From positions 1 to 48,293 of the forward strand of contig JAGWVL010000004.1 of NCBI GenBank assembly GCA_018970885.1: 48,293 bases of DNA, read 5' to 3'. The notes under the pieces are model-generated. The model made no database searches, was not told where the DNA came from, and saw nothing but the letters and a program-made list of their open reading frames with translations. Of the stretch, positions 6,743-47,986 are shown in pieces (within the stretch, counting starts at the first letter, position 1; each line of letters opens with the position of its first letter). The DNA comes from Actinomycetales bacterium. Its GTDB lineage: Bacteria; Actinomycetota; Actinomycetes; Nanopelagicales; Nanopelagicaceae. A program made the position numbers and the translations under genes.

Positions 6743-7365
6743 TATTTTTTCTCTGGGAGCAAGTGGCGTGCAGGTTCGGAGTAGGTAAGTCCAGAAATCA
6801 TTCCTTCATCATCAAAGTGAATACTTGTCACCGAAGCCAAGGAGCATTCACGTTTTCGAGGATCATGAAGCATTGACCGATTTTCGATCGCACTTCTTAA
6901 AATCCAAATTGGTAATTGATGAGATACACAAATTGCATCTTTCCCACTTGCTGCTTTATTTGCAGCAAAGACCGCTGCAAGCATGCGAGTGATTTGCTGT
7001 TCGTAAGGCTCACCCCATGATGGCTTCCACGGATTCCATAAGTGTTTCCATGCTGCTGGGTGACGTAAAACCCCATCACCAACGCCAAATGGTTTCCCTT
7101 CAAAAACATTTGCAGCTTCAATTAGTCGTTCATCAGTTGTTATTGAAATGTTGTGTGCAGCTGCGATGGGTGCTGCTGTTTCTTGTGCGCGCTGAAGGGG
7201 TGAGACGTGAAGTGCTCCTAGATCTAAGGTTTTGGACCATTCAGCAATTGTTTTCGCCATTTCTTGCCCACGCTCAGACAAACTCCAGCCAGGCTGACGG
7301 CCGTACAAAATTTTGTCAGGATTATGTACCTCTCCGTGGCGCACTACATGCACTGTTGAACTCAT
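6742..7365 (-). CDS. histidine phosphatase family protein (phosphoglycerate-mutase-like)
   Basis: A 207-residue member of the histidine phosphatase superfamily. The catalytic RHGE appears as VVRHGEVHNPDKILYGR at the N-terminus, the Arg in SPLQRAQETA, and the second catalytic His in CVSHQLP. It lacks the fuller motif set of a true glycolytic phosphoglycerate mutase, so substrate is unknown. It heads the cytochrome c maturation operon, an arrangement also known in mycobacteria and streptomycetes. Transcription probably starts at its own ATG from the box at 7372-7377. Confidence 0.85.
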   Translation of the reverse strand: MSSTVHVVRHGEVHNPDKILYGRQPGWSLSERGQEMAKTIAEWSKTLDLGALHVSPLQRAQETAAPIAAAHNISITTDERLIEAANVFEGKPFGVGDGVLRHPAAWKHLWNPWKPSWGEPYEQQITRMLAAVFAANKAASGKDAICVSHQLPIWILRSAIENRSMLHDPRKRECSLASVTSIHFDDEGMISGLTYSEPARHLLPEKK

Positions 7366-7371
7366 TGGGAA

Positions 7372-7377
7372 AGCATA
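7372..7377 (-). promoter_or_regulatory. leaderless -10 box TATGCT for the phosphatase/cytochrome c operon
   Basis: On the minus strand TATGCT is followed by exactly six bases and then the ATG at 7365. It would drive the operon 7365-3124. No Shine-Dalgarno site is visible here. Confidence 0.65.
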
Positions 7378-7403
7378 AAGCGTCTCTCAAGGAGTTCTCT
7401 CGC

Positions 7404-7409
7404 TAAGGT
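7404..7409 (+). promoter_or_regulatory. leaderless -10 box TAAGGT for the HAD gene
   Basis: TAAGGT, six bases, then the ATG at 7416. It faces away from the box at 7372-7377, so both divergent promoters fit in the 50-base spacer. Confidence 0.65.
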
Positions 7410-7415
7410 AGTGAC

Positions 7416-8183
7416 ATGGCACTCACAAGCAAACGGGCTGCCTTCTTTGATGTCGATAACACGCTTATTCGTGGTTCAGTAATTTACTTCTTGGGCCGAG
7501 GTATGTATCAGCGTGGTTATTTCACTAAGAAGGATATTTCTCGATTTGTTTTGGCGAACCTGAGATTTCGCTTAACGGGTAAGGAAAACAAAGAAGAAAT
7601 TCAAAGGTTCCAGGATGCTGCCACAGATTTTATTGGTGGACACAATGTAAAAGATATCGAAGCAATCGCTCAAGAAATTTATGATGAATATGTCTCCCCT
7701 GCGATGTGGCAAGGAACAATTGATATCGCACAAGCCTTGGTTGCAGAAGGTGTCGAAGTGTATTTAGTTACCGCCGCACCAGAAGACATGGCTATTGTAA
7801 TTGCAAACCGATTGGGTCTAACGGGTGCGCTTGGCAGTAAAGCTGAAATTAAAGATGGAACATATACCGGTCGTATGAATGGACCTTTGTTGCATGGAAA
7901 GGAAAAAGCAATTGCGGTAATTGAACTTGCGGCTGAAAAGGGCTTTGACCTTAGTCAATGTCTAGCATTTTCTGATAGCAACAATGATTTACCACTGTTG
8001 CAATGTGTTGGTCATCCATCGGCAATAAATCCAGATGCGCTATTAGGTTTGCGAGCGATGGCTGAAGGGTGGCCAATTCATGACTTCAGAAAAGCTCGCT
8101 TCATCGGCAAAGCGATCTCCCCCATCGTTGTTCGCTTCGCCGCTCTAGGAACCTGGCTGACTCCGCGTAAACGAAGAGGCTGA
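7416..8183 (+). CDS. HAD-IB family hydrolase (SerB/CicA-like phosphatase)
   Basis: A 255-residue haloacid-dehalogenase phosphatase. Motif I is FFDVDNTLIRGS (nucleophile Asp12, acid/base Asp14), motif II is the Thr in YLVTAAPEDMA, and motif III/IV is SDSNNDLPLL. The cap inserted after motif I and the length fit the HAD-IB subfamily that includes phosphoserine phosphatases and CicA-type proteins; the mycobacterial gene in this neighbourhood is annotated serB1. Substrate specificity cannot be read from the motifs. The C-terminus has a hydrophobic then Arg/Lys-rich end that may sit at the membrane. Confidence 0.85.
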   Translation: MALTSKRAAFFDVDNTLIRGSVIYFLGRGMYQRGYFTKKDISRFVLANLRFRLTGKENKEEIQRFQDAATDFIGGHNVKDIEAIAQEIYDEYVSPAMWQGTIDIAQALVAEGVEVYLVTAAPEDMAIVIANRLGLTGALGSKAEIKDGTYTGRMNGPLLHGKEKAIAVIELAAEKGFDLSQCLAFSDSNNDLPLLQCVGHPSAINPDALLGLRAMAEGWPIHDFRKARFIGKAISPIVVRFAALGTWLTPRKRRG

Positions 8184-10428: not shown

Positions 10429-11490
10429 ATGTTGGCAGACCTAGAAGCGTTAGTTAAGTTGGAATCTCCAACTGAAGATCTTCAGTCATGCCGCGATGTC
10501 ATCGAACTTGCAAATCAAATCGCAACCCGAGTTTTAGGTACACCTGCAGATATCCGTGAAGTAAATGGTCGTCCAATCTTTTGGTGGGGATCTTCAACTC
10601 CTGATGTCGTGGTTCTTGCTCACTTAGACACGGTTTGGCCTAAGGGTTCATTTAAACCCTTATGGCAGGTTGAGGGCACCGCTGCACGCGGTCCCGGAAT
10701 CTTTGATATGAAAGCTGGATTCATCCAAGCGTTGTATGCGATGAAAGGAATCTCTGGAAGCGCAGCACTCATAGCAACAACTGATGAGGAAACTGGCAGT
10801 GCGACAAGTAAAGAGTTCATCAAAGAAGTTTCTGCCAAAGCCAAAGCGGTCTTAGTTTTAGAGGCTACTTTAAATGGAAAAGTAAAGACCGGTCGTAAAG
10901 GCACAGCGATGTACCAAGTAAAGATTCATGGAAAGGCATCACATGCTGGACTTGAACCTGAAAAAGGTGTTAACGCAACAACTGAAATTGCACATGCAGT
11001 TTTAGCCATTGCTGCGCTGGAAAATCCAGAGCATGGAACCACAGTTGTCCCAACAACTTTGCATGCTGGAAATACAACAAACACGGTTCCTGATTTGGCT
11101 GTTTTGGATATTGATATCCGCTCATACTCAATGGCAGATCTGCAACGGGTTGATACTGCGATCAAAGCATTGAAACCTGTTAATACTGCTACTCGTTATG
11201 AAGTCACGGGTGGTTTCAATCGTCCTCCCTTGGAAACCTCATCAACAATGGCTTTGTATGAGCGTGCCGAAAAGGTTGCAAAAGAACTAGGAATGCCACC
11301 ACTTGGACATGCATCTGTTGGTGGAGCAAGTGATGGAAACTTCGCCGCTGCTGCAGGGGCACAGGTCCTTGATGGACTCGGAGCTGTAGGAGATGGCGCT
11401 CACGCCGCGCATGAATGGGTAGACATCAGTACCCTTGAAGTTCGCAGCAATTTATTACATGCGCTAATAAAGGATTTACTCAATGAGTGA
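10429..11490 (+). CDS. M20 family metallopeptidase (carboxypeptidase G2-like)
   Basis: A 353-residue two-zinc hydrolase of the M20/CPG2 type that removes an acyl or amino-acid group from small peptides or folate-like substrates. Metal and catalytic motifs: VVLAHLDTVWPKGS (His and Asp), GPGIFDMKAG (bridging Asp), TTDEETGS (catalytic Glu-Glu), and a C-terminal GDGAHAAHEWV (last His ligand). The dimerisation domain sits between, with GKASHAGLEPEKGVNA. No signal peptide, so cytosolic. It overlaps the XPB helicase gene by eight bases, an unusual partner for a helicase. Confidence 0.88.
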   Translation: MLADLEALVKLESPTEDLQSCRDVIELANQIATRVLGTPADIREVNGRPIFWWGSSTPDVVVLAHLDTVWPKGSFKPLWQVEGTAARGPGIFDMKAGFIQALYAMKGISGSAALIATTDEETGSATSKEFIKEVSAKAKAVLVLEATLNGKVKTGRKGTAMYQVKIHGKASHAGLEPEKGVNATTEIAHAVLAIAALENPEHGTTVVPTTLHAGNTTNTVPDLAVLDIDIRSYSMADLQRVDTAIKALKPVNTATRYEVTGGFNRPPLETSSTMALYERAEKVAKELGMPPLGHASVGGASDGNFAAAAGAQVLDGLGAVGDGAHAAHEWVDISTLEVRSNLLHALIKDLLNE

Positions 11491-17160: not shown

Positions 17161-17960
17161 GCTAATTCCTGCGAACGATCGCGGGCCGCCTTCATCGCCT
17201 TAGCAACTATTGCATTCAAGTTGTCATTACTAAATGAAGCAAGTGCAGCAGCGGTTGTTCCATTTGGACTAGTTACATTTTCGCGCAAGGTTGTTGCACT
17301 TTTGCCTGATTCATTCAGCAACTTGGCAGCTCCCACGATAGTTTGAATCGTAAGGGTTGTTGCATCTTGATCTGAAAGCCCAAGCTCTTTAGCCCCCGCA
17401 ACCATTGCTTCAACAAAAGCAAAGAAGTAAGCAGGTCCCGAACCACTTGTTGCAGTTACGGCATCCTGCAGATCTTCAGATACCTCAATAACCTTGCCCG
17501 TTGCACCTAGAAAACCAAGAACAAAATCACGTTGAGCAGCTGTGACACCTGCACCCATTGACGCTGCTGCCATGCCTTGTGCAACCAAGGTAGGAGTATT
17601 TGGCATAACTCGAATGACTGGATTACCAGTTCCAAGGCCATTGCTAATAAATGAGATTGTCTTACCGGCAGCAAAGGTGATCACTACAGATGATGGATTG
17701 ATCGAGTCCTTAATCTCCATTAAAACCGATGCCATATCTTGAGGTTTAACTACCAACAACAAGGCATCTGCATCAGCAACATTCGAGGTTAACGGTGCGG
17801 CATTAATTAAATACTTTGAAACCAGCTCTTGCGCACGATCTTCTCGCTTTTCAGAGATAGTAATTCGATCAGGGTCAACACCAGATGAAATCAAAGCGGC
17901 AATAAGGGCCTCACCCATTACACCGGCACCGATAACGGCAACCTTTGATTGCTGATTCAT
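17157..17960 (-). CDS. proC: pyrroline-5-carboxylate reductase (ProC)
   Basis: Cytosolic enzyme that reduces 1-pyrroline-5-carboxylate to proline with NAD(P)H. The 267 residues show the Rossmann start VAVIGAGVMGEALIAALI, the segment VIRVMPNTPTLVAQGM, and the C-terminal P5CR signature region SGSGPAYFFAFVEAM with LRENVTSPNGTTAAAL. Transcription probably starts at its ATG from the box at 17967-17972. The secreted protein downstream overlaps it by four bases. The proC-bS22 neighbourhood is conserved in mycobacteria, where a BldC-type regulator lies between; no such gene is seen here. Confidence 0.95.
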   Translation of the reverse strand: MNQQSKVAVIGAGVMGEALIAALISSGVDPDRITISEKREDRAQELVSKYLINAAPLTSNVADADALLLVVKPQDMASVLMEIKDSINPSSVVITFAAGKTISFISNGLGTGNPVIRVMPNTPTLVAQGMAAASMGAGVTAAQRDFVLGFLGATGKVIEVSEDLQDAVTATSGSGPAYFFAFVEAMVAGAKELGLSDQDATTLTIQTIVGAAKLLNESGKSATTLRENVTSPNGTTAAALASFSNDNLNAIVAKAMKAARDRSQELA

Positions 17961-17999: not shown

Positions 18000-18812
18000 A
18001 TGTCAGAAGTTAAAGCAGGATTTGCGCGTGATTGGGTTGAGTTTTTTGACCCCAATGATGCAGAGACAATTTTTAAGTGCGATCTCACTTGGTTAACTTC
18101 CTATTGGACTTGTATTTATGGCGATGGCTGCCAAGGTGTCTTTAAGAGTCAACCAAATTCAGGGTGTTGCACTGAAGGTGCGATGTACACCGACAAAGCT
18201 GATGAGGAGCGAACAATCAAAGCCGCTGCTTATCTGACACCAGAAATGTGGCAGTTCTATAACGAGGCTCGTCCCAAGAAGCCCGGCGGAGAGCTACGAA
18301 TTTCGGAAAAAGATGAGGATGGTGAACGCAAAACTCGTCGCGTCGAAGATGGTTGTATTTTTCTAAACCGTAAAGGTTATGAAGCTGAAGGTTTCACGGG
18401 AACATTTGGTTGCGTCCTGCACCATGTTGCACAGCGCGATGGAAAACACTTTGCTGATACAAAGCCCGACGTGTGCTGGCAGTTGCCATTGCGTCGTAGC
18501 TATGAAACTCGCGAATACGGAGAACGTGAATACACCGTAACTGTAATTGGTGAGTATGAGCGTCTTGCCTGGGGCGATGGAGGCGAAGATTTTGATTGGT
18601 ACTGCACAAGCAATAGCGATGCCCACGTCGGCACAGAGCCTGTGTACATTTCCAACAAATATGAACTTGAGCTCTTGATGGGCAAGGATGCATACGCCGA
18701 GTTAGCGCGTTTGTGTGATCTCAGAATGGAACACATTCGCGATTCTGCAGCACGCTCACTTCCACTATTTATCATTCAGCATCCAGCAACATTGGCTGCC
18801 CAGAAGAAATAG
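18000..18812 (+). CDS. Cys-rich conserved protein, YkgJ/DUF3109-like
   Basis: A protein of about 270 residues with two Cys/His clusters. The first reads CIYGDGCQG then GCCTEGAMY near residues 31-57; the second reads GCIFLNRKGYE, FGCVLHH and PDVCWQLPLR near residues 115-165. This spacing resembles YkgJ/UPF0153 and DUF3109 proteins, which are thought to bind zinc or an iron-sulfur cluster. The exact family is uncertain. The ATG at 18000 is preferred because TAGGCT lies eight bases upstream and the product then begins MSEVKAGFARDW; the ATG at 17979 would add seven residues. Function unknown. Confidence 0.6.
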   Translation: MSEVKAGFARDWVEFFDPNDAETIFKCDLTWLTSYWTCIYGDGCQGVFKSQPNSGCCTEGAMYTDKADEERTIKAAAYLTPEMWQFYNEARPKKPGGELRISEKDEDGERKTRRVEDGCIFLNRKGYEAEGFTGTFGCVLHHVAQRDGKHFADTKPDVCWQLPLRRSYETREYGEREYTVTVIGEYERLAWGDGGEDFDWYCTSNSDAHVGTEPVYISNKYELELLMGKDAYAELARLCDLRMEHIRDSAARSLPLFIIQHPATLAAQKK

Positions 18813-18838: not shown

Positions 18839-20206
18839 ATGGCCAAGGTTGAAAAAGATCCATTCCGCTGCACTGAGTGCGGTTGGACCTCCCAAAAATG
18901 GGTTGGTCGCTGCGGAGAATGCCAGGCGTGGGGCGCGGTTGAAGAGATCGCAGCGCCTAAAAAACTTTCACTAGTTGCTGGAAATGTAACCACGAAAGCA
19001 ACACCTATTGGTGATGTGGATCTTTCCGCTGCACACGCACGTGCAACTGGTGTATCGGAGTTAGATCGTGTTCTAGGAGGTGGATTAGTACCTGGAGCTG
19101 CGATTTTGCTTGCTGGCGAACCTGGTGTTGGTAAATCAACGCTGTTACTTTCAGTTGCAGCTCAAACCGCAGCAAAGGGAATTCCTGCTTTATATATCAG
19201 CGGTGAAGAGTCGGCATCGCAGGTGCGACTTCGCGCAGAGCGAATCAAAGCTATTGATGCTCAATTATTTCTCGCCTCTGAAACAGATCTAGGCGCAGTC
19301 ATCGCACATATCGATGCGGTTAAACCACAACTAGTAATTATCGACTCGGTTCAAACAATTGGTAGCTCTACAGCAGATGGCGCACCTGGTGGTGTAACCC
19401 AAGTACGTGAAGTAGCAGGTGCATTAATTCGTATTTGTAAAGATCGTGATATCACATTACTTCTTGTAGGACATGTAACTAAGGATGGGTCAATTGCCGG
19501 ACCACGTTTACTTGAACACATCGTTGATGTGGTGTTGCAGTTTGAAGGAGAGCGTCATTCACGACTTCGCTTAATCCGTGCGATCAAAAACCGTTTTGGC
19601 GCTTCAGATGAGGTTGGCTGTTTTGATCTCAGTGATACCGGAATTGAATCTGTATTAGATCCAACTGGTTTGTTTACTTCGCGTCATGCAGAACCTGTTC
19701 CCGGAACTTGTGTGACCGTTACCCTCGAAGGTCGTCGGCCATTACTTGCCGAGATTCAAGCGCTCGTTTCTGCAGGACGAGAAAATGATTATGGAAATGC
19801 ACGCCGAGTTGTCTCTGGTTTAGATTCAGCACGCACATCTATGACACTTGCAGTTCTTGAGCTTCGCGCACATATTCGTGTTGGCGGAAGAGATGTGTAT
19901 GCGGCAACAGTTGGTGGCATGAAAATGACAGAGCCAGCCGCTGATTTAGCCCTGGCCTTGGCTGTGGCATCTGCAGCAAAGGGCCTTGCGCTGCCTGCAG
20001 ATCTCGTTGCAATTGGCGAAGTTGGATTAGCGGGTGAAATCCGCAAGGTAAGTGGTGTAACTCGCAGACTTCAAGAGGCCTATCGCCTTGGCTTTAAGCG
20101 CGCATTAGTTCCAACAGGTTCAGATACAAAGATCGATGGCATGGAGATCGTTGAGGTTTCACGTTTAGATGCCGCACTAAAACGGGTAAAAATCACCGGC
20201 GAATGA
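18839..20206 (+). CDS. radA: DNA repair protein RadA (Sms)
   Basis: Bacterial RadA, a RecA-like branch-migration helicase in homologous recombination. The 455 residues show the N-terminal C4 zinc finger CTECGWTSQKWVGRCGEC (residues 9-26), Walker A GEPGVGKST (about 93-101), Walker B LVIIDSVQT, the RadA-specific KNRFG (about 250-254) and a C-terminal Lon-protease-like domain (GGMKMTEPAADLALALA). It overlaps mutY by four bases (ATGA). The radA-mutY association is also seen in mycobacteria, though less tightly. Confidence 0.96.
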   Translation: MAKVEKDPFRCTECGWTSQKWVGRCGECQAWGAVEEIAAPKKLSLVAGNVTTKATPIGDVDLSAAHARATGVSELDRVLGGGLVPGAAILLAGEPGVGKSTLLLSVAAQTAAKGIPALYISGEESASQVRLRAERIKAIDAQLFLASETDLGAVIAHIDAVKPQLVIIDSVQTIGSSTADGAPGGVTQVREVAGALIRICKDRDITLLLVGHVTKDGSIAGPRLLEHIVDVVLQFEGERHSRLRLIRAIKNRFGASDEVGCFDLSDTGIESVLDPTGLFTSRHAEPVPGTCVTVTLEGRRPLLAEIQALVSAGRENDYGNARRVVSGLDSARTSMTLAVLELRAHIRVGGRDVYAATVGGMKMTEPAADLALALAVASAAKGLALPADLVAIGEVGLAGEIRKVSGVTRRLQEAYRLGFKRALVPTGSDTKIDGMEIVEVSRLDAALKRVKITGE

Positions 20207-40791: not shown

Positions 40792-41865
40792 ATGCGCTTT
40801 AAATTTTTACTTTCGCTTTTACTAATTTCGTTCTGTGCTCCTGCAACTCCTGCACAAGGCGAAGATACTTCCCCAACTATGAAGTTGATCTACACGATTA
40901 ATGGATCAATATCGCCAAAATCTGTTCGCTCATCAGGTGATGGTGTCGTTAGTGCACACAACATGATGTATCGGCATTCGGTAACGATATATGACGCAAA
41001 AACTTTCGAGCTCTTGCACACCGTCTCCGACTCTGTTTCATTAAAAGATTTTGGTCATTCAAAAATCGACGGAAGCTATAAGGGTGCACCTGTTGAGGGA
41101 ACTTTTTCTCCAGATGGTAAGTATCTATATGTAAGTAACTACTCGATGTATGGTAAAGGTTATAACAAAGAAGGACATGACACTTGCTCACCTTCATCTG
41201 GCTATGACAAGAGTTTTGTGTATCGGATTAATCGCATTAACTACCAAATAGATTCGGTCTATCCCGTTGGATCAGTGCCTAAAGTTGTCGAAATTACTCC
41301 GGATAACAAATATGTTTTGGCAGCTAATTGGTGTTCCTATACCGTTTCAGTGATTTCAGTTGAGCAGAACAAAGTTGTCAAGACGGTCAAGATTGGGCGC
41401 TACCCGCGCGGGATAGCTATAAGCAATGACTCTACGAAGGCCTATGTTGCCGAAATGGGTGGTAATCGTATCCATGTGATTAATCTGCAAGATTTTTCAA
41501 CCTCATACATTCCGATTGGAAGTAACCCTCGAGCAATAGTTTTATCTCCTGATAACTCAACGATGTATGTCACGATGAATCTTTCAGGTCGAGTTGCTTC
41601 GTGGGATCTCGTAGCAAATAAAGCTGGTAAGTCTGTTAGAACGGGTGAAGCTGCACGAAGTCTAGCTATCTCAGCTGATGGTTCAGCTCTCTATGTTGTT
41701 AACTTCAAGAGTGACACGATGTCACGTGTTAGGACTAGTGACATGAAAGTTACCCAAAATATCAAGGTCTGTAATGAACCAATTGGTATCTCTTACGATG
41801 TTCCTACCGGTAACACCTGGGTAGCCTGTTACAAAGGACAAATCAAGATCTTTTCAAACAATTAA
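40792..41865 (+). CDS. secreted YVTN-type beta-propeller protein
   Basis: A 357-residue exported protein: signal peptide MRFKFLLSLLLISFCAPATPA, then about seven repeats of the YVTN/lactonase type with the pattern 'YVxxxxxxxVxVIDxxxxxV', as in VVEITPDNKYVLAANWCSY, GIAISNDSTKAYVAEMGGN and AIVLSPDNSTMYVTMN. A Cys-containing insert (HDTCSPSSGYD) is present in the first third. No enzyme site stands out; such propellers bind ligands or cell-surface partners. Its TAA shares TTAA with the convergent dacB stop. Confidence 0.8.
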   Translation: MRFKFLLSLLLISFCAPATPAQGEDTSPTMKLIYTINGSISPKSVRSSGDGVVSAHNMMYRHSVTIYDAKTFELLHTVSDSVSLKDFGHSKIDGSYKGAPVEGTFSPDGKYLYVSNYSMYGKGYNKEGHDTCSPSSGYDKSFVYRINRINYQIDSVYPVGSVPKVVEITPDNKYVLAANWCSYTVSVISVEQNKVVKTVKIGRYPRGIAISNDSTKAYVAEMGGNRIHVINLQDFSTSYIPIGSNPRAIVLSPDNSTMYVTMNLSGRVASWDLVANKAGKSVRTGEAARSLAISADGSALYVVNFKSDTMSRVRTSDMKVTQNIKVCNEPIGISYDVPTGNTWVACYKGQIKIFSNN

Positions 41866-43028
41866 GGTGCTGGAGAAATCTCTGCCGGGATGTTTGGGGC
41901 GGCGATTCTTCCTAAGACTCGATCAATTGCTGCACGGGCTTTGTTGAGCGCAGAATTACCTTTTGCTATCTCATCGGCCAAAGTTACAAAGATATATTCA
42001 CGATCCGTTGATTGAACATAACCTGCAAGGGTTGCTGTTCCATTCAGAGTTCCTGTTTTAGCTCTCACTAAACCTACCGCTGACGGAGCTGTTGTTAAAA
42101 AGCGAGTTCTTAAAGTTCCAGAAACTCCACCAACTGGTAGACCCAAGTAAATTAATGCAAACTTTTCATCTTTGCGTAGCTTGTACAAAAGTTCACCCAT
42201 CAAATGAGCTGTGATCTTGTTTTTCCTCGATAGGCCACTGGCATCTGCAACAACTAACTTTGAATCATCAATTTCAAACTTGGCCAGAATCTCTCTAAAA
42301 ACTTTATCGACACCCTTTTCATCCATACTGAATCCAGCAGCTTTAGCTGACAACCGAGCTAAACGTTCGGCAATTAAGTTATCGCTCCACAGAAGTGTCC
42401 AATCCAAAAGGGCTGCGACCGTTGGAGAGTTTTCAGACACAATCTGCTCACCCATTGAAATGAATGCTTCATCATCTGTTACTGACTTCATGGCAGGCTT
42501 GAAATTTCTCTTTGCCCAAAAGGATTTTAAATTAGCTACATCTTGAGAATAAAGTCCACTATAGATAACTTTGTAATTCTTCAGTGATCCTTTGTTGAAC
42601 TCTTTGACGTAAGTTAGAGTTCGAAAACCCATGTAGGGCAAAGAGGCTCGATTCATTTTGCGAGCAATCTTGTGATCCAAACTAATCCAAGGATCATATG
42701 AGCCTCTAACTATAACCGTTTTGATTTCTGGATTTATACTTACGGTTGTATTGAAAACTGATGTTGCATCTAGGTACTCAACGGTCACAGCACCTGTCAG
42801 CATTTTCATTACCGATGCGGGTTTACGTTGTGAATATGCATTCTTTTCATAGATGACCGCACCTGTACTGCCATCGATAACAATCATCGCTGGGTTTGAA
42901 AGGGTTTGGCTCTGTAGCAATTCATCAAATGCGGCAGGAATTGATTCTGGACCTAACACTGCCTGCGCAGGCAACACTGAAAAAACCGTGGCAAGAATGA
43001 TCGCGATTAATCGGTAAAGAAAAGGCAT
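41862..43028 (-). CDS. dacB: D-alanyl-D-alanine carboxypeptidase/endopeptidase (PBP4 type)
   Basis: Exported class C penicillin-binding protein that trims peptidoglycan peptides. The 388 residues carry a signal peptide (MPFLYRLIAIILATVFSVLPAQA), the active-site SxxK in RKPASVMKML (near residue 70), SDN in LLWSDNLIAERLA, and KTG in RAKTGTLNGTATLAGYV. A PBP4-type insert lies between SxxK and SxN. It follows the four-helix membrane protein by nine bases and is likely cotranscribed. A dacB lies in the matching mycobacterial region beyond tilS. Confidence 0.92.
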   Translation of the reverse strand: MPFLYRLIAIILATVFSVLPAQAVLGPESIPAAFDELLQSQTLSNPAMIVIDGSTGAVIYEKNAYSQRKPASVMKMLTGAVTVEYLDATSVFNTTVSINPEIKTVIVRGSYDPWISLDHKIARKMNRASLPYMGFRTLTYVKEFNKGSLKNYKVIYSGLYSQDVANLKSFWAKRNFKPAMKSVTDDEAFISMGEQIVSENSPTVAALLDWTLLWSDNLIAERLARLSAKAAGFSMDEKGVDKVFREILAKFEIDDSKLVVADASGLSRKNKITAHLMGELLYKLRKDEKFALIYLGLPVGGVSGTLRTRFLTTAPSAVGLVRAKTGTLNGTATLAGYVQSTDREYIFVTLADEIAKGNSALNKARAAIDRVLGRIAAPNIPAEISPAP

Positions 43029-43037
43029 TATTTCTTT

Positions 43038-43385
43038 CTAGCGCCAGGACGCTATAACGATGTTTGTAATTGTAAGGCCAATCATCATCAACCAAACATT
43101 CTTTGAAAGCTCTGGCTTTTTAACATTTTTATAACCCAGTGACAAGATAACAACAAGGATCACAAACTTAATGCCAACCTTTGTATGGTTTAAGATCTCA
43201 TCAGGTTTAACTGTTTCATGTAGTCCGACCAAGATTAAACCAGCAACAAGTGCGGTCAATCCGGCATGAAGTACCCCAGGATTTAAGGTACGGGGGGACT
43301 TATTAGACTGCAATAAAAGTAGAACTAAAATGCCGAGAACAGAGAGAAGATGAATTACATACGCGACCGTGTTGATAGCTGACAT
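43038..43385 (-). CDS. four-helix membrane protein of unknown function
   Basis: A 115-residue protein with four predicted helices (about residues 5-25, 38-58, 69-85, 95-113). Notable is HAGLTALVAGLILVGLHE and the helix FVILVVILSLGYKNV. Conserved in actinobacteria as a hypothetical membrane protein; I do not recognise a function. It heads a two-gene unit with dacB and starts leaderless from the box at 43392-43397. Confidence 0.7.
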   Translation of the reverse strand: MSAINTVAYVIHLLSVLGILVLLLLQSNKSPRTLNPGVLHAGLTALVAGLILVGLHETVKPDEILNHTKVGIKFVILVVILSLGYKNVKKPELSKNVWLMMIGLTITNIVIASWR

Positions 43386-43391
43386 GCATTC

Positions 43392-43397
43392 AGTTTA
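43392..43397 (-). promoter_or_regulatory. leaderless -10 box TAAACT for the membrane protein/dacB unit
   Basis: On the minus strand TAAACT is followed by six bases and the ATG at 43385. Its first two bases are shared with the plus-strand box at 43396-43401. Confidence 0.7.
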
Positions 43398-43401
43398 GAG
43401 T
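43396..43401 (+). promoter_or_regulatory. leaderless -10 box TAGAGT for the TrmH gene
   Basis: TAGAGT, six bases, then the ATG at 43408. The two divergent boxes overlap by TA, so the whole 22-base spacer is used by both promoters. Confidence 0.7.
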
Positions 43402-43407
43402 GCATAC

Positions 43408-44055
43408 ATGTCTTCTCCAACAACCCCAGCCAGTATCGGCCCAGGTGAATTTTTCCCTGTTGTTGGTGTTGGACCTCATAGCAAGCCTTGGCCAGAAGGT
43501 GATCAATACGATCCTGAATTATTACTGAATGGTGATCGCAGAAATGTCCTAGATCGCTATCGCTATTGGAGCGTGGAAGCGATCGTCGCAGATTTGAATA
43601 CCAAGCGGCATAAATTACAGATTGCAATTGAAAATTGGCAACATGACCTCAATATTGGATCAATTGTCAGAACTGCAAATGCTTTCAATGTTTCTGGAGT
43701 GCATATTGTTGGCAAACGCGATTGGAATAAGCGTGGTGCAATGGTGACTGATCGATATCTAACTGTTATTCACCATCCAACAATTGAAGATTTTGTAAAA
43801 TACTGCCAAGAAAATAACCTTCCAATCATTGGCATAGACAATGTGCCAAGTTCAAAGAAATTGGAATCAGCAACCTTGCCTGAGAGTTGTGTCCTTTTAT
43901 TTGGTCAAGAGGGTGCGGGTATGTCTGATGAGGGAATCGCTGCTTGCGAAGTTTTGTATGAAATAAATCAATATGGTTCGACACGTTCCATGAATGCATC
44001 AGCAGCAGGTGCAATCGCGATGTATCACTGGGCCTTACAACACCTACCGCGATGA
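43408..44055 (+). CDS. TrmH/SpoU family RNA 2'-O-methyltransferase
   Basis: A 215-residue SPOUT methyltransferase acting on tRNA or rRNA ribose with S-adenosylmethionine. Motif 1 is HDLNIGSIVRTANAFNVSG with the catalytic Arg, motif 2 is VLLFGQEGAGMSDEGI, and motif 3 is INQYGSTRSMNASAAGAIAMY, forming the knotted cofactor site. An N-terminal segment of about 70 residues has no recognised RNA-binding fold. The target nucleotide cannot be read from sequence. Overlaps the MFS gene by four bases. Confidence 0.9.
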   Translation: MSSPTTPASIGPGEFFPVVGVGPHSKPWPEGDQYDPELLLNGDRRNVLDRYRYWSVEAIVADLNTKRHKLQIAIENWQHDLNIGSIVRTANAFNVSGVHIVGKRDWNKRGAMVTDRYLTVIHHPTIEDFVKYCQENNLPIIGIDNVPSSKKLESATLPESCVLLFGQEGAGMSDEGIAACEVLYEINQYGSTRSMNASAAGAIAMYHWALQHLPR

Positions 44056-45215
44056 AAAGAATTTGGCTTTCTCGTAACTTAGTGCTTCTTACACTTGTCT
44101 CTCTCACTCAAGATGCAGCAAGTGATTTGTTATACCCACTACTTCCAATTTTGCTCACTGGGGTTATCGGTGCAGCTCCACTTGCATTGGGATTAATTGA
44201 AGGATGTGCTGAAGCAGCTGCAGGTTTTGCGAAGCTTTATGCTGGCAAATACAGTGATCGCATCGGTCGTAAACCTTTCGTAGTTGGTGGGTACTCCTTA
44301 GCGGGATTCGGAAAGGTCTGTGTTGTCTTTGCAACCGCTTGGCCTACAGTATTTTTTGGCCGTGTTACCGACCGAATCGGGAAAGGTATGCGTAGCTCTC
44401 CGCGTGATGCACTGATCAACGATTCAGTTCCAAAGGAACATCTCGGAAAAGCCTTTGGTTTTCACAGATCTGGAGACAATTTAGGAGCTGTTATTGGCCC
44501 TGCCTTAGCTTTGCTGGGGTTAGCTTTGCTCGATGATGATGTTCGCGCCGTTGCCAAATGGGCGCTGATACCTGCCTTGCTATCAGGGTTACTCACCTTA
44601 TTCATCAAAGACACCTTTAAAAGGCCTACTAAAGAGAAGGTAGCGGTAAGCAAAAACTACAAAGTTCCTAAAGAAATCAAATTTCCGATTGCAACGCTAG
44701 TAGCAATCCAATTAACAAACATTCCAGATGCGCTTCTATTGCTGCGTCTCCATCAAATTGGATTTACAACCAAAGAGGTAGTTCTTTCTTATATGCTTTT
44801 TAGTTTTGTAACAATGCTTGGAGCATATCCTGCAGGTCTAATAGCAGATAAATTGAATCCTAAGTTGGTGTATGCAATTGGTTTGCTTGCATTTGCTGTT
44901 GGTTACATTTCGTTGGGATTAACTCAAAATCATACTGTCGCTGTTATCGCAATTATTATTTATGGTCTGTTCCCTGCCTTGACAGATGGTGTTGGAAAAG
45001 CTTGGATCGCATCGCTAAGTCCAGATAATCATCGTGGAAAGATTCAAGGTGTGTACCAATCATCAATGAACTTTGCGATTTTAGGTGCAGGAATTTGGGG
45101 TGGTGCATTATGGAGCAGTGGTGCAATTCAGTGGCCACTAGTAATTGCTGGTGTTGGGGCTGCTATTGGTGCGCTAGTTCTTCTAATAGTCCGTCCACTG
45201 CGCGTTCAACCATAG
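44052..45215 (+). CDS. MFS transporter
   Basis: A 387-residue major facilitator transporter with twelve predicted helices. The loop 2-3 motif A is GKYSDRIGRKPFVVGGY and its repeat in the second half is GLIADKLNPKLVYAIG. The segment GKGMRSSPRDALINDSVP marks a subgroup often annotated as 'drug or sugar permease' in bacteria; substrate is not known. Coupled to the methyltransferase gene (ATGA) though the two functions are unrelated. Its 3' end overlaps the phosphatase gene by 53 bases. Confidence 0.88.
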   Translation: MKRIWLSRNLVLLTLVSLTQDAASDLLYPLLPILLTGVIGAAPLALGLIEGCAEAAAGFAKLYAGKYSDRIGRKPFVVGGYSLAGFGKVCVVFATAWPTVFFGRVTDRIGKGMRSSPRDALINDSVPKEHLGKAFGFHRSGDNLGAVIGPALALLGLALLDDDVRAVAKWALIPALLSGLLTLFIKDTFKRPTKEKVAVSKNYKVPKEIKFPIATLVAIQLTNIPDALLLLRLHQIGFTTKEVVLSYMLFSFVTMLGAYPAGLIADKLNPKLVYAIGLLAFAVGYISLGLTQNHTVAVIAIIIYGLFPALTDGVGKAWIASLSPDNHRGKIQGVYQSSMNFAILGAGIWGGALWSSGAIQWPLVIAGVGAAIGALVLLIVRPLRVQP

Positions 45216-46642: not shown

Positions 46643-47986
46643 TTAAGGACGACTGGGAATATCAATCTGTGCCACCGGCCATTTTGAAGTTTTGACCGCT
46701 TTGAGCACCTCGGTGGTGACCTGTGTGACCTGTTTTTGTGCCACGGAATCAAAGGTGTGACCCCAAGGGCAACGGTTTTTCATCGCACAAACCCAGGCGT
46801 TGGTGCCCATATTCATTACCGAGGCTCCACTGGGAGCGTTGTAATAGGTAGACATCGCGACAAATCCCTTTTCAGTGGGACTTATTGCAGCTCGCGCAAC
46901 GACCTGGACACCTGGACCAATAGTTCCCATTGCCGTGTCAGCTTCATATCCATACAGACCTTTAATAACAGCATCCTGACCCAATACTGCAAAGGGCCAC
47001 ACATTATTTGAAATCAAATCCTTCTTAATACCTAAAGCAAAATATTGAGAACCAAGTAAGAGTGATTCGGGTTGATTTACTTCTCTATATGGTTTGCGAC
47101 CTGAGATCTCTCGGCCATTTACATTAGTGATTGCATACGCTGTATTTCCTCCAAAAGCAATTAAATGTTTTCTGGCTGCAACCGCTGCTTCAATTCGCTG
47201 GCGCATTTGCAAAGTCCAGTATTCGCTATGACCACCAACAACGATCGCTTTGGTGGAATCAAAAACCGCTGGATTGTTATCGACATCTAGATCTGTAACA
47301 AAGTTGATATCTAAACCAAGTTTTTCCATCAAAGTAAGTAATGGCTGTTCCATGTATCTGAACTGTCCAGAACCATCACCATCATATGGACGATTAAAGG
47401 TTACTGATTGCGCACTTGTTTCACGATTGCCATCAGCACCCTTGTATAAGGATGAGCCGCCCCATTGGTTATAACTTTGCCAAGTTAAAACCGATGAGAT
47501 GAAAGTTAGATCACTTGGCGCGTTTCCATAAACTGTAAAAGGCACAAAAGTTGCTGCGCGCAGATTATTGGAGAGTTTGATTAGGTACTGACCTGGTGGT
47601 GTTTTTGAATCTATCGAAATCTGAGTTGGGGATTTCAAAAGTTTCACAAGGCGAGCGCCAGAGTTGTTGTAGTAACCCATTCGATAAACCGATGCGGTGA
47701 ACTTCTTGGAACCAACAGTTGTCAGAGTTAACTTATCGCCGCAGGTTGCGCTACTTGCACTGACATACCCTTCAATACGTGGAACATCTTTGCGTCGAGA
47801 AAAATCGGCGCTGTACAGCAAGGGGACTCCCGCGCTCCATTTCTTATCCCCAGCTTTTTGATTTTCGCGGGCTACCCATCCAGGGGATTGATCCCAACCG
47901 CAGGTAGCGGCGGTCGCTGAAATCGGCCACAGATGGGCAACCAGCATTACCGCCACGAGGAATTTACGCTTAGGGAATTTACGCAT
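46643..47986 (-). CDS. secreted N,N-dimethylformamidase-beta-like protein
   Basis: A 447-residue protein with a signal peptide (hydrophobic run FLVAVMLVAHLWPISATA after MRKFPKRK) and similarity to the C-terminal domain of the N,N-dimethylformamidase large subunit family: YRMGYYNNSGARLV, WQSYNQWGGSSLY, FNRPYDGDGSGQF, DVDNNPAVFDSTKAIVVGGHSEYWT and LIAFGGNTAYA. Classical dimethylformamidase is cytosolic and needs a small subunit; here the protein is exported and alone. Probably an extracellular hydrolase or a carbohydrate-binding relative. Substrate unknown. Confidence 0.75.
   Translation of the reverse strand: MRKFPKRKFLVAVMLVAHLWPISATAATCGWDQSPGWVARENQKAGDKKWSAGVPLLYSADFSRRKDVPRIEGYVSASSATCGDKLTLTTVGSKKFTASVYRMGYYNNSGARLVKLLKSPTQISIDSKTPPGQYLIKLSNNLRAATFVPFTVYGNAPSDLTFISSVLTWQSYNQWGGSSLYKGADGNRETSAQSVTFNRPYDGDGSGQFRYMEQPLLTLMEKLGLDINFVTDLDVDNNPAVFDSTKAIVVGGHSEYWTLQMRQRIEAAVAARKHLIAFGGNTAYAITNVNGREISGRKPYREVNQPESLLLGSQYFALGIKKDLISNNVWPFAVLGQDAVIKGLYGYEADTAMGTIGPGVQVVARAAISPTEKGFVAMSTYYNAPSGASVMNMGTNAWVCAMKNRCPWGHTFDSVAQKQVTQVTTEVLKAVKTSKWPVAQIDIPSRP

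Follow-up and report, generated by a model that had tools for sequence, protein, structure and literature searches.

The 22 nucleotides that separate two divergent start codons in this actinobacterial DNA very probably form a single bidirectional promoter of the housekeeping sigma-70 type. As predicted from the sequence, it would belong to the class with transcription start sites (TSSs) 23 bp apart, would be leaderless in both directions, and would start both a trmH-MFS operon and an operon made of a gene for a 115-aa protein and dacB. The window, i.e. the whole stretch of 48,293 nucleotides that was analysed, comes from a host that is probably a freshwater member of the Nanopelagicales, to judge by its closest named relatives in a genome collection, which are uncultured actinobacteria and include records of Candidatus Planktophila and Candidatus Nanopelagicaceae. 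The features of the locus are as follows.

41862 to 43028, minus strand: dacB, D-Ala-D-Ala carboxypeptidase (S13), 388 aa, downstream of the 115-aa gene (Pfam PF02113; NCBIfam TIGR00666 barely over its cut-off)
43038 to 43385, minus strand: hydrophobic protein of 115 aa (small membrane protein), predicted leaderless, with neither a Pfam nor an NCBIfam match
43372 to 43377, plus strand: probable -35 element TTGATA of the trmH promoter, 18-bp spacer, in codons of the 115-aa gene
43386 to 43407, no strand: intergenic spacer, GCATTCAGTTTAGAGTGCATAC, 22 nt as read from the sequence, the entire gap between both start codons
43392 to 43402, no strand: conserved core AGTTTAGAGTG, from the alignment, with both overlapping -10 hexamers
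43392 to 43397, minus strand (read 43397 to 43392): -10 hexamer TAAACT of the promoter of the 115-aa gene and dacB, 6 nt from the ATG
43396 to 43401, plus strand: -10 hexamer TAGAGT of the trmH-MFS promoter, 6 nt from the ATG, fitting TANNNT
43408 to 44055, plus strand: SpoU/TrmH-family RNA 2'-O-methyltransferase, 215 aa, predicted leaderless (Pfam PF00588, E 4.7e-30; score under every NCBIfam equivalog cut-off)
43415 to 43420, minus strand: weak candidate -35 TTGGAG of the minus promoter, 17-bp spacer, within trmH, poorly conserved in the alignment
44052 to 45215, plus strand: MFS transporter, 387 aa (Pfam PF07690), its start overlapping the trmH stop

The layout described in the earlier note for 43383-43410 is exact in every coordinate. 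The start codons, ATG at 43383-43385 on the minus strand and ATG at 43408-43410 on the plus strand, are 22 nt apart, both hexamers stand 6 nt from their starts, and the TA at 43396-43397 is common to the two, giving the pseudo-symmetric overlap A GTT TA GAG T. Each hexamer also contains an in-frame stop (TAA and TAG), with three codons from stop to start on either side of this locus (L112), and therefore no earlier start is possible for either ORF. RNA polymerase would bind such a promoter in either orientation, and the overlap of the -10 hexamers through the self-complementary TA would set the opposed start sites, as predicted from the sequence, 23 bp from each other. Transcription would then begin on the A of each AUG, leaving both mRNAs leaderless. 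Both directions may be active within the same cell, and at any one instant one bound polymerase would be expected from the geometry to block the other.

The leaderless reading draws on a census of 400 kb from each of four relatives of the same genus together with the window, with simple ORF calls for genes of at least 100 aa, each taken from its first ATG. Of 1506 such genes, 204 have TANNNT exactly 6 nt upstream of the first ATG and 75 have it 7 nt upstream; any other distance from 0 to 39 nt is represented by 7 to 36 genes. The peak at 6 nt is so far over the other distances that the leaderless reading is more than chance. On the plus side of our locus, TAGAGT leaves no room for a leader; on the minus side, TAAACT stands at the same distance, and the 35 orthologous loci arranged in this way have no Shine-Dalgarno match. 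Both hexamers are thus placed as the -10 elements of leaderless genes, and the proposal that two leaderless promoters oppose each other here and overlap in their -10 hexamers finds support as a prediction. In the sampled stretches, 25 divergent pairs with both starts leaderless lie within 150 nt; seven of them, from three gene families, have a spacer of 22 nt, more than any other length.

Similar elements are described in Mycobacterium tuberculosis, where TANNNT precedes 73% of primary start sites by 7-12 bp, 22-26% of genes are leaderless and no -35 element is conserved; closely juxtaposed divergent promoters are called common there, and prpD/Rv1129c is a divergent pair with both genes leaderless (PMC3898074). 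Our locus resembles these promoters in TANNNT and in leaderless divergence, whereas a fixed 22-nt spacer or a shared -10 is not given in the available part of that report.

Relatives bear directly on the minus-strand start. The 115-aa gene was found in 53 loci, and the distance from the predicted minus TSS to its start was taken as the predicted leader. This leader is 0-1 nt in 35 loci, all lacking a Shine-Dalgarno match, and 21-62 nt in the other 18, of which 17 have a match; the exception, L047, has an uncertain start. The dacB gene is present in 49 of the 53 loci, and the sequence ends too early in three of the rest. A further 16 loci lack the 115-aa gene, and all of these have dacB as the divergent neighbour; six of them still have an AUG at the predicted minus TSS. 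The Shine-Dalgarno rule fails in these 16 loci, with no AUG at the predicted TSS in ten and a match in one of the 16, a count weakened by the fact that starts there were taken from the longest ORF only.

In five of the six loci that keep this AUG (L010, L022, L041, L052 and L062), it opens minus-strand ORFs of 8, 8, 16, 22 and 22 codons near the trmH start, which finish at, overlap, or stop 4 nt before the start of dacB. The sixth AUG ORF is fused in frame to dacB. A leaderless bicistronic design described for Corynebacterium glutamicum likewise places a short fore-cistron without a leader before the next gene, which benefits from its translation (PMC10367133). As presented there, that design is engineered and includes a Shine-Dalgarno motif, whereas the short ORFs of the relatives appear, judging by their sequence, to be the remains of a lost 115-aa gene.

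These comparisons also allow us to weigh a simpler reading, namely that only the trmH promoter is real, the minus-strand TAAACT being a by-product and the minus operon starting elsewhere, for example inside trmH. Such a reading would fit the 18 of 53 loci in which the minus start has moved, with the core fixed relative to trmH, and the -35-like TTG that is clear on the trmH side only. We consider it unlikely, because the minus AUG falls exactly at the predicted TSS wherever the Shine-Dalgarno match is missing (35 of 53 loci) and the moved starts nearly always have one, because the five loci with short ORFs retain an AUG at the very same base, and because the enrichment of the layout described below is two-sided. 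As for the -35 regions, the earlier note had placed each of them within the coding sequence of the opposite gene, and by geometry this holds. TTG occupies positions -36 to -34 of trmH in 29 of the 34 leaderless loci with the exact 22-nt arrangement, in five of the six loci without the 115-aa gene that keep the AUG, in seven of 18 loci with a displaced start (including L027, displaced by 1 nt), and in none of four others. A conserved TTG is reported to be absent from actinobacterial promoters (PMC8407463).

Orthologs of trmH show how firmly the bidirectional promoter is kept. Loci were gathered from two collections (30 and 80), whose genomes are partly common to both, so that the counts are not independent. 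Alignment rows had been picked by the core itself, and conservation was therefore counted in 71 loci with a TrmH identity of at least 80%, a set not picked by the core. The loci are related, and in a redundancy check 52 of 63 differed from one another at more than 6 of 124 bases. The core AGTTTAGAGTG is exact before trmH in 62 of the 71 loci, 57 of them at -16 and five at -17 from the start used. The remaining nine comprise one locus with a single base changed, six with AAGATAGATTG in its place, and two without the core (L085 and L088, one of them without a usable start). The spacer bases flanking the core vary strongly in the alignment, and beyond the set with at least 80% identity trmH often retains a TANNNT box but not the core.

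The earlier note had proposed conservation of the 22-base spacer as a check. Among the 53 loci with the 115-aa gene, the spacer is exactly 22 nt in 34, is 1 nt longer in one, and in 18 the minus start is at least 21 nt further off, so that its length is kept in part only. Since the core stays and a Shine-Dalgarno site accompanies the moved starts, this variation argues for a promoter rather than against it. Taken at the level of sequence, the conservation of the trmH core looks like a real conserved design whose layout recurs in relatives.

Conservation as proof of something special is tempered by unidirectional leaderless controls. The leaderless gene at 18839 has five different TANNNT hexamers among 29 orthologs, with TA and T fixed. 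Of the 30 loci of the gene at 10429, 13 keep TANNNT 6 nt from the start, and a third control, the gene at 47986, is too divergent to be of use. When genome G014 was compared with G015, G186 and G063, all seven free positions were kept in 3 of 20, 3 of 17 and 3 of 16 comparisons of unidirectional leaderless genes, and in 15 of 15 comparisons of bidirectional promoters from two gene pairs, where one of the seven positions (A at -16) is fixed by the selection of those sites. Conservation of the full 10-base core is not unique: of ten leaderless genes conserved in three genomes, three, trmH among them, keep theirs unchanged. Most of the unidirectional leaderless boxes compared vary more than the trmH core, which is nonetheless not alone in its constancy.

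Such constancy might also be expected if the core were the binding site of a dedicated regulator, its conservation having little to do with promoters. All three N positions are conserved in both hexamers, unlike in the control gene at 18839, which speaks for a regulator site. Yet the core sits precisely where two -10 elements are expected, and other 22-nt pairs have different cores that are equally stable. In addition, AGTTTAGAGTG is not enriched elsewhere in the genomes; 41 genomes contain it 40 times and the reversed word 37 times, which points to no dispersed site, and the idea of a regulon was dropped. We regard a dedicated regulator as very improbable.

The layout of the bidirectional promoter is not confined to trmH. 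We searched for the pattern CAT-N6-ANNNTANNNT-N6-ATG, with the same pattern reversed as control. In 60 genomes of the genus, the 22-nt layout gives 172 matches against 20 for the reversed pattern, and neither the 17-nt layout (34 against 33) nor the 28-nt layout (32 against 24) is comparably enriched. When each TANNNT box stands 6 nt from its AUG, an overlap with few fixed bases requires a spacer of 17 or 22 nt, and of the two the 22-nt form alone is enriched in the genus. Outside the genus but within the class (137 of 148 genomes), the 22-nt layout has 66 matches against 18 and the 28-nt spacing 9 against 14. In 109 of 119 genomes from the rest of the phylum, the layout is only slightly enriched (69 against 47). 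Five genomes hold 21 layout matches, of which 16 were examined; 11 of these are flanked on both sides by ORFs of 50 codons or more, and five on one side only. The matches listed (75 of 172) hold 30 cores, 13 of which recur in at least two genomes, and gene pairs with the layout include MgtE-N/CBS with EamA, a DUF554 protein with a YitT-like protein, and TauE with a ThiS-like protein.

The window's own genome has a further 22-nt pair (L117, G000:C10:19961-19988) between an MgtE-N/CBS protein and an EamA transporter, and its near-palindromic core AAGGTACCCT is found in seven of the matches listed. Another divergent pair in the window, at 7365-7416, has both starts predicted leaderless and a spacer of exactly 50 nt in all five sampled genomes; its middle differs among them, and one of its -10 regions (GCTTTATGCT) is invariant. 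The pair at 17960/17979 was considered as a second example in the window and rejected, as the plus start is placed later in relatives. For the ORF listed from 17979, the ATG at 18000 is the probable start codon: in many relatives the alignment begins only near residue 3 and no start is present at that place, and a TAGGCT located 8 nt upstream of 18000 is mostly conserved.

The founding paper on bacterial bidirectional promoters, by Warman, Grainger and colleagues, reportedly dates from 2021. Such promoters are described as having opposed start sites 7-25 bp apart and a -10 sequence shared through symmetry (PMC12825309, PMC10268837), with 18, 10 and 23 bp as the common distances in Escherichia coli (PMC12825309). 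Our locus is alike in its shared -10, in its site between divergent genes and in a predicted distance of 23 bp, which is among the common ones. It differs in that both predicted start sites are start codons, so that the promoter is the entire intergenic region. In addition, leaderless starts here show no enrichment (34 against 33) of the 18-bp form, the most frequent one in E. coli. In the portions available of the literature on leaderless genes with bidirectional promoters, we recognised no description of this combined layout.

The earlier note had gone further and suggested that the two polymerases exclude each other, making a minimal switch between the dacB operon and trmH-MFS. Its first half stands: with overlapping -10 hexamers, simultaneous binding is ruled out sterically, a point also made in PMC12825309. 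The same source describes E. coli promoters of this class in which strong activation one way represses the other direction, which speaks for a switch. However, basal transcription from five E. coli bidirectional promoters is given there as too low for competition, no regulator site was identified at our locus, and AGTTTAGAGTG is not a dispersed regulon site. Since competition in E. coli was not seen at the basal level and appears on activation, we take the switch as unproven and, the promoter having no known activator, as quite improbable. Most likely, the bidirectional promoter would be a compact means for a small genome to express two operons constitutively, both of them housekeeping-like and unrelated to each other.

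More tentatively, and with some doubt, the 22-nt palindrome-like block from start codon to start codon may be a standard genomic part in leaderless-rich actinobacteria, in which every base serves both directions. Its sequence might set the ratio of the two operons, so that it would be constant for each gene pair and different between pairs; when a flanking gene changes, the block would stay, and the gene would gain a Shine-Dalgarno leader or leave a short leaderless ORF. Symmetric bidirectional promoters and leaderless genes are both known, and together they would give a single layout that is predictable and recognisable in the bare sequence. The orthologs of this locus offer a natural experiment, in which the promoter stays as it is and a gene would pass from leaderless to Shine-Dalgarno translation or back.
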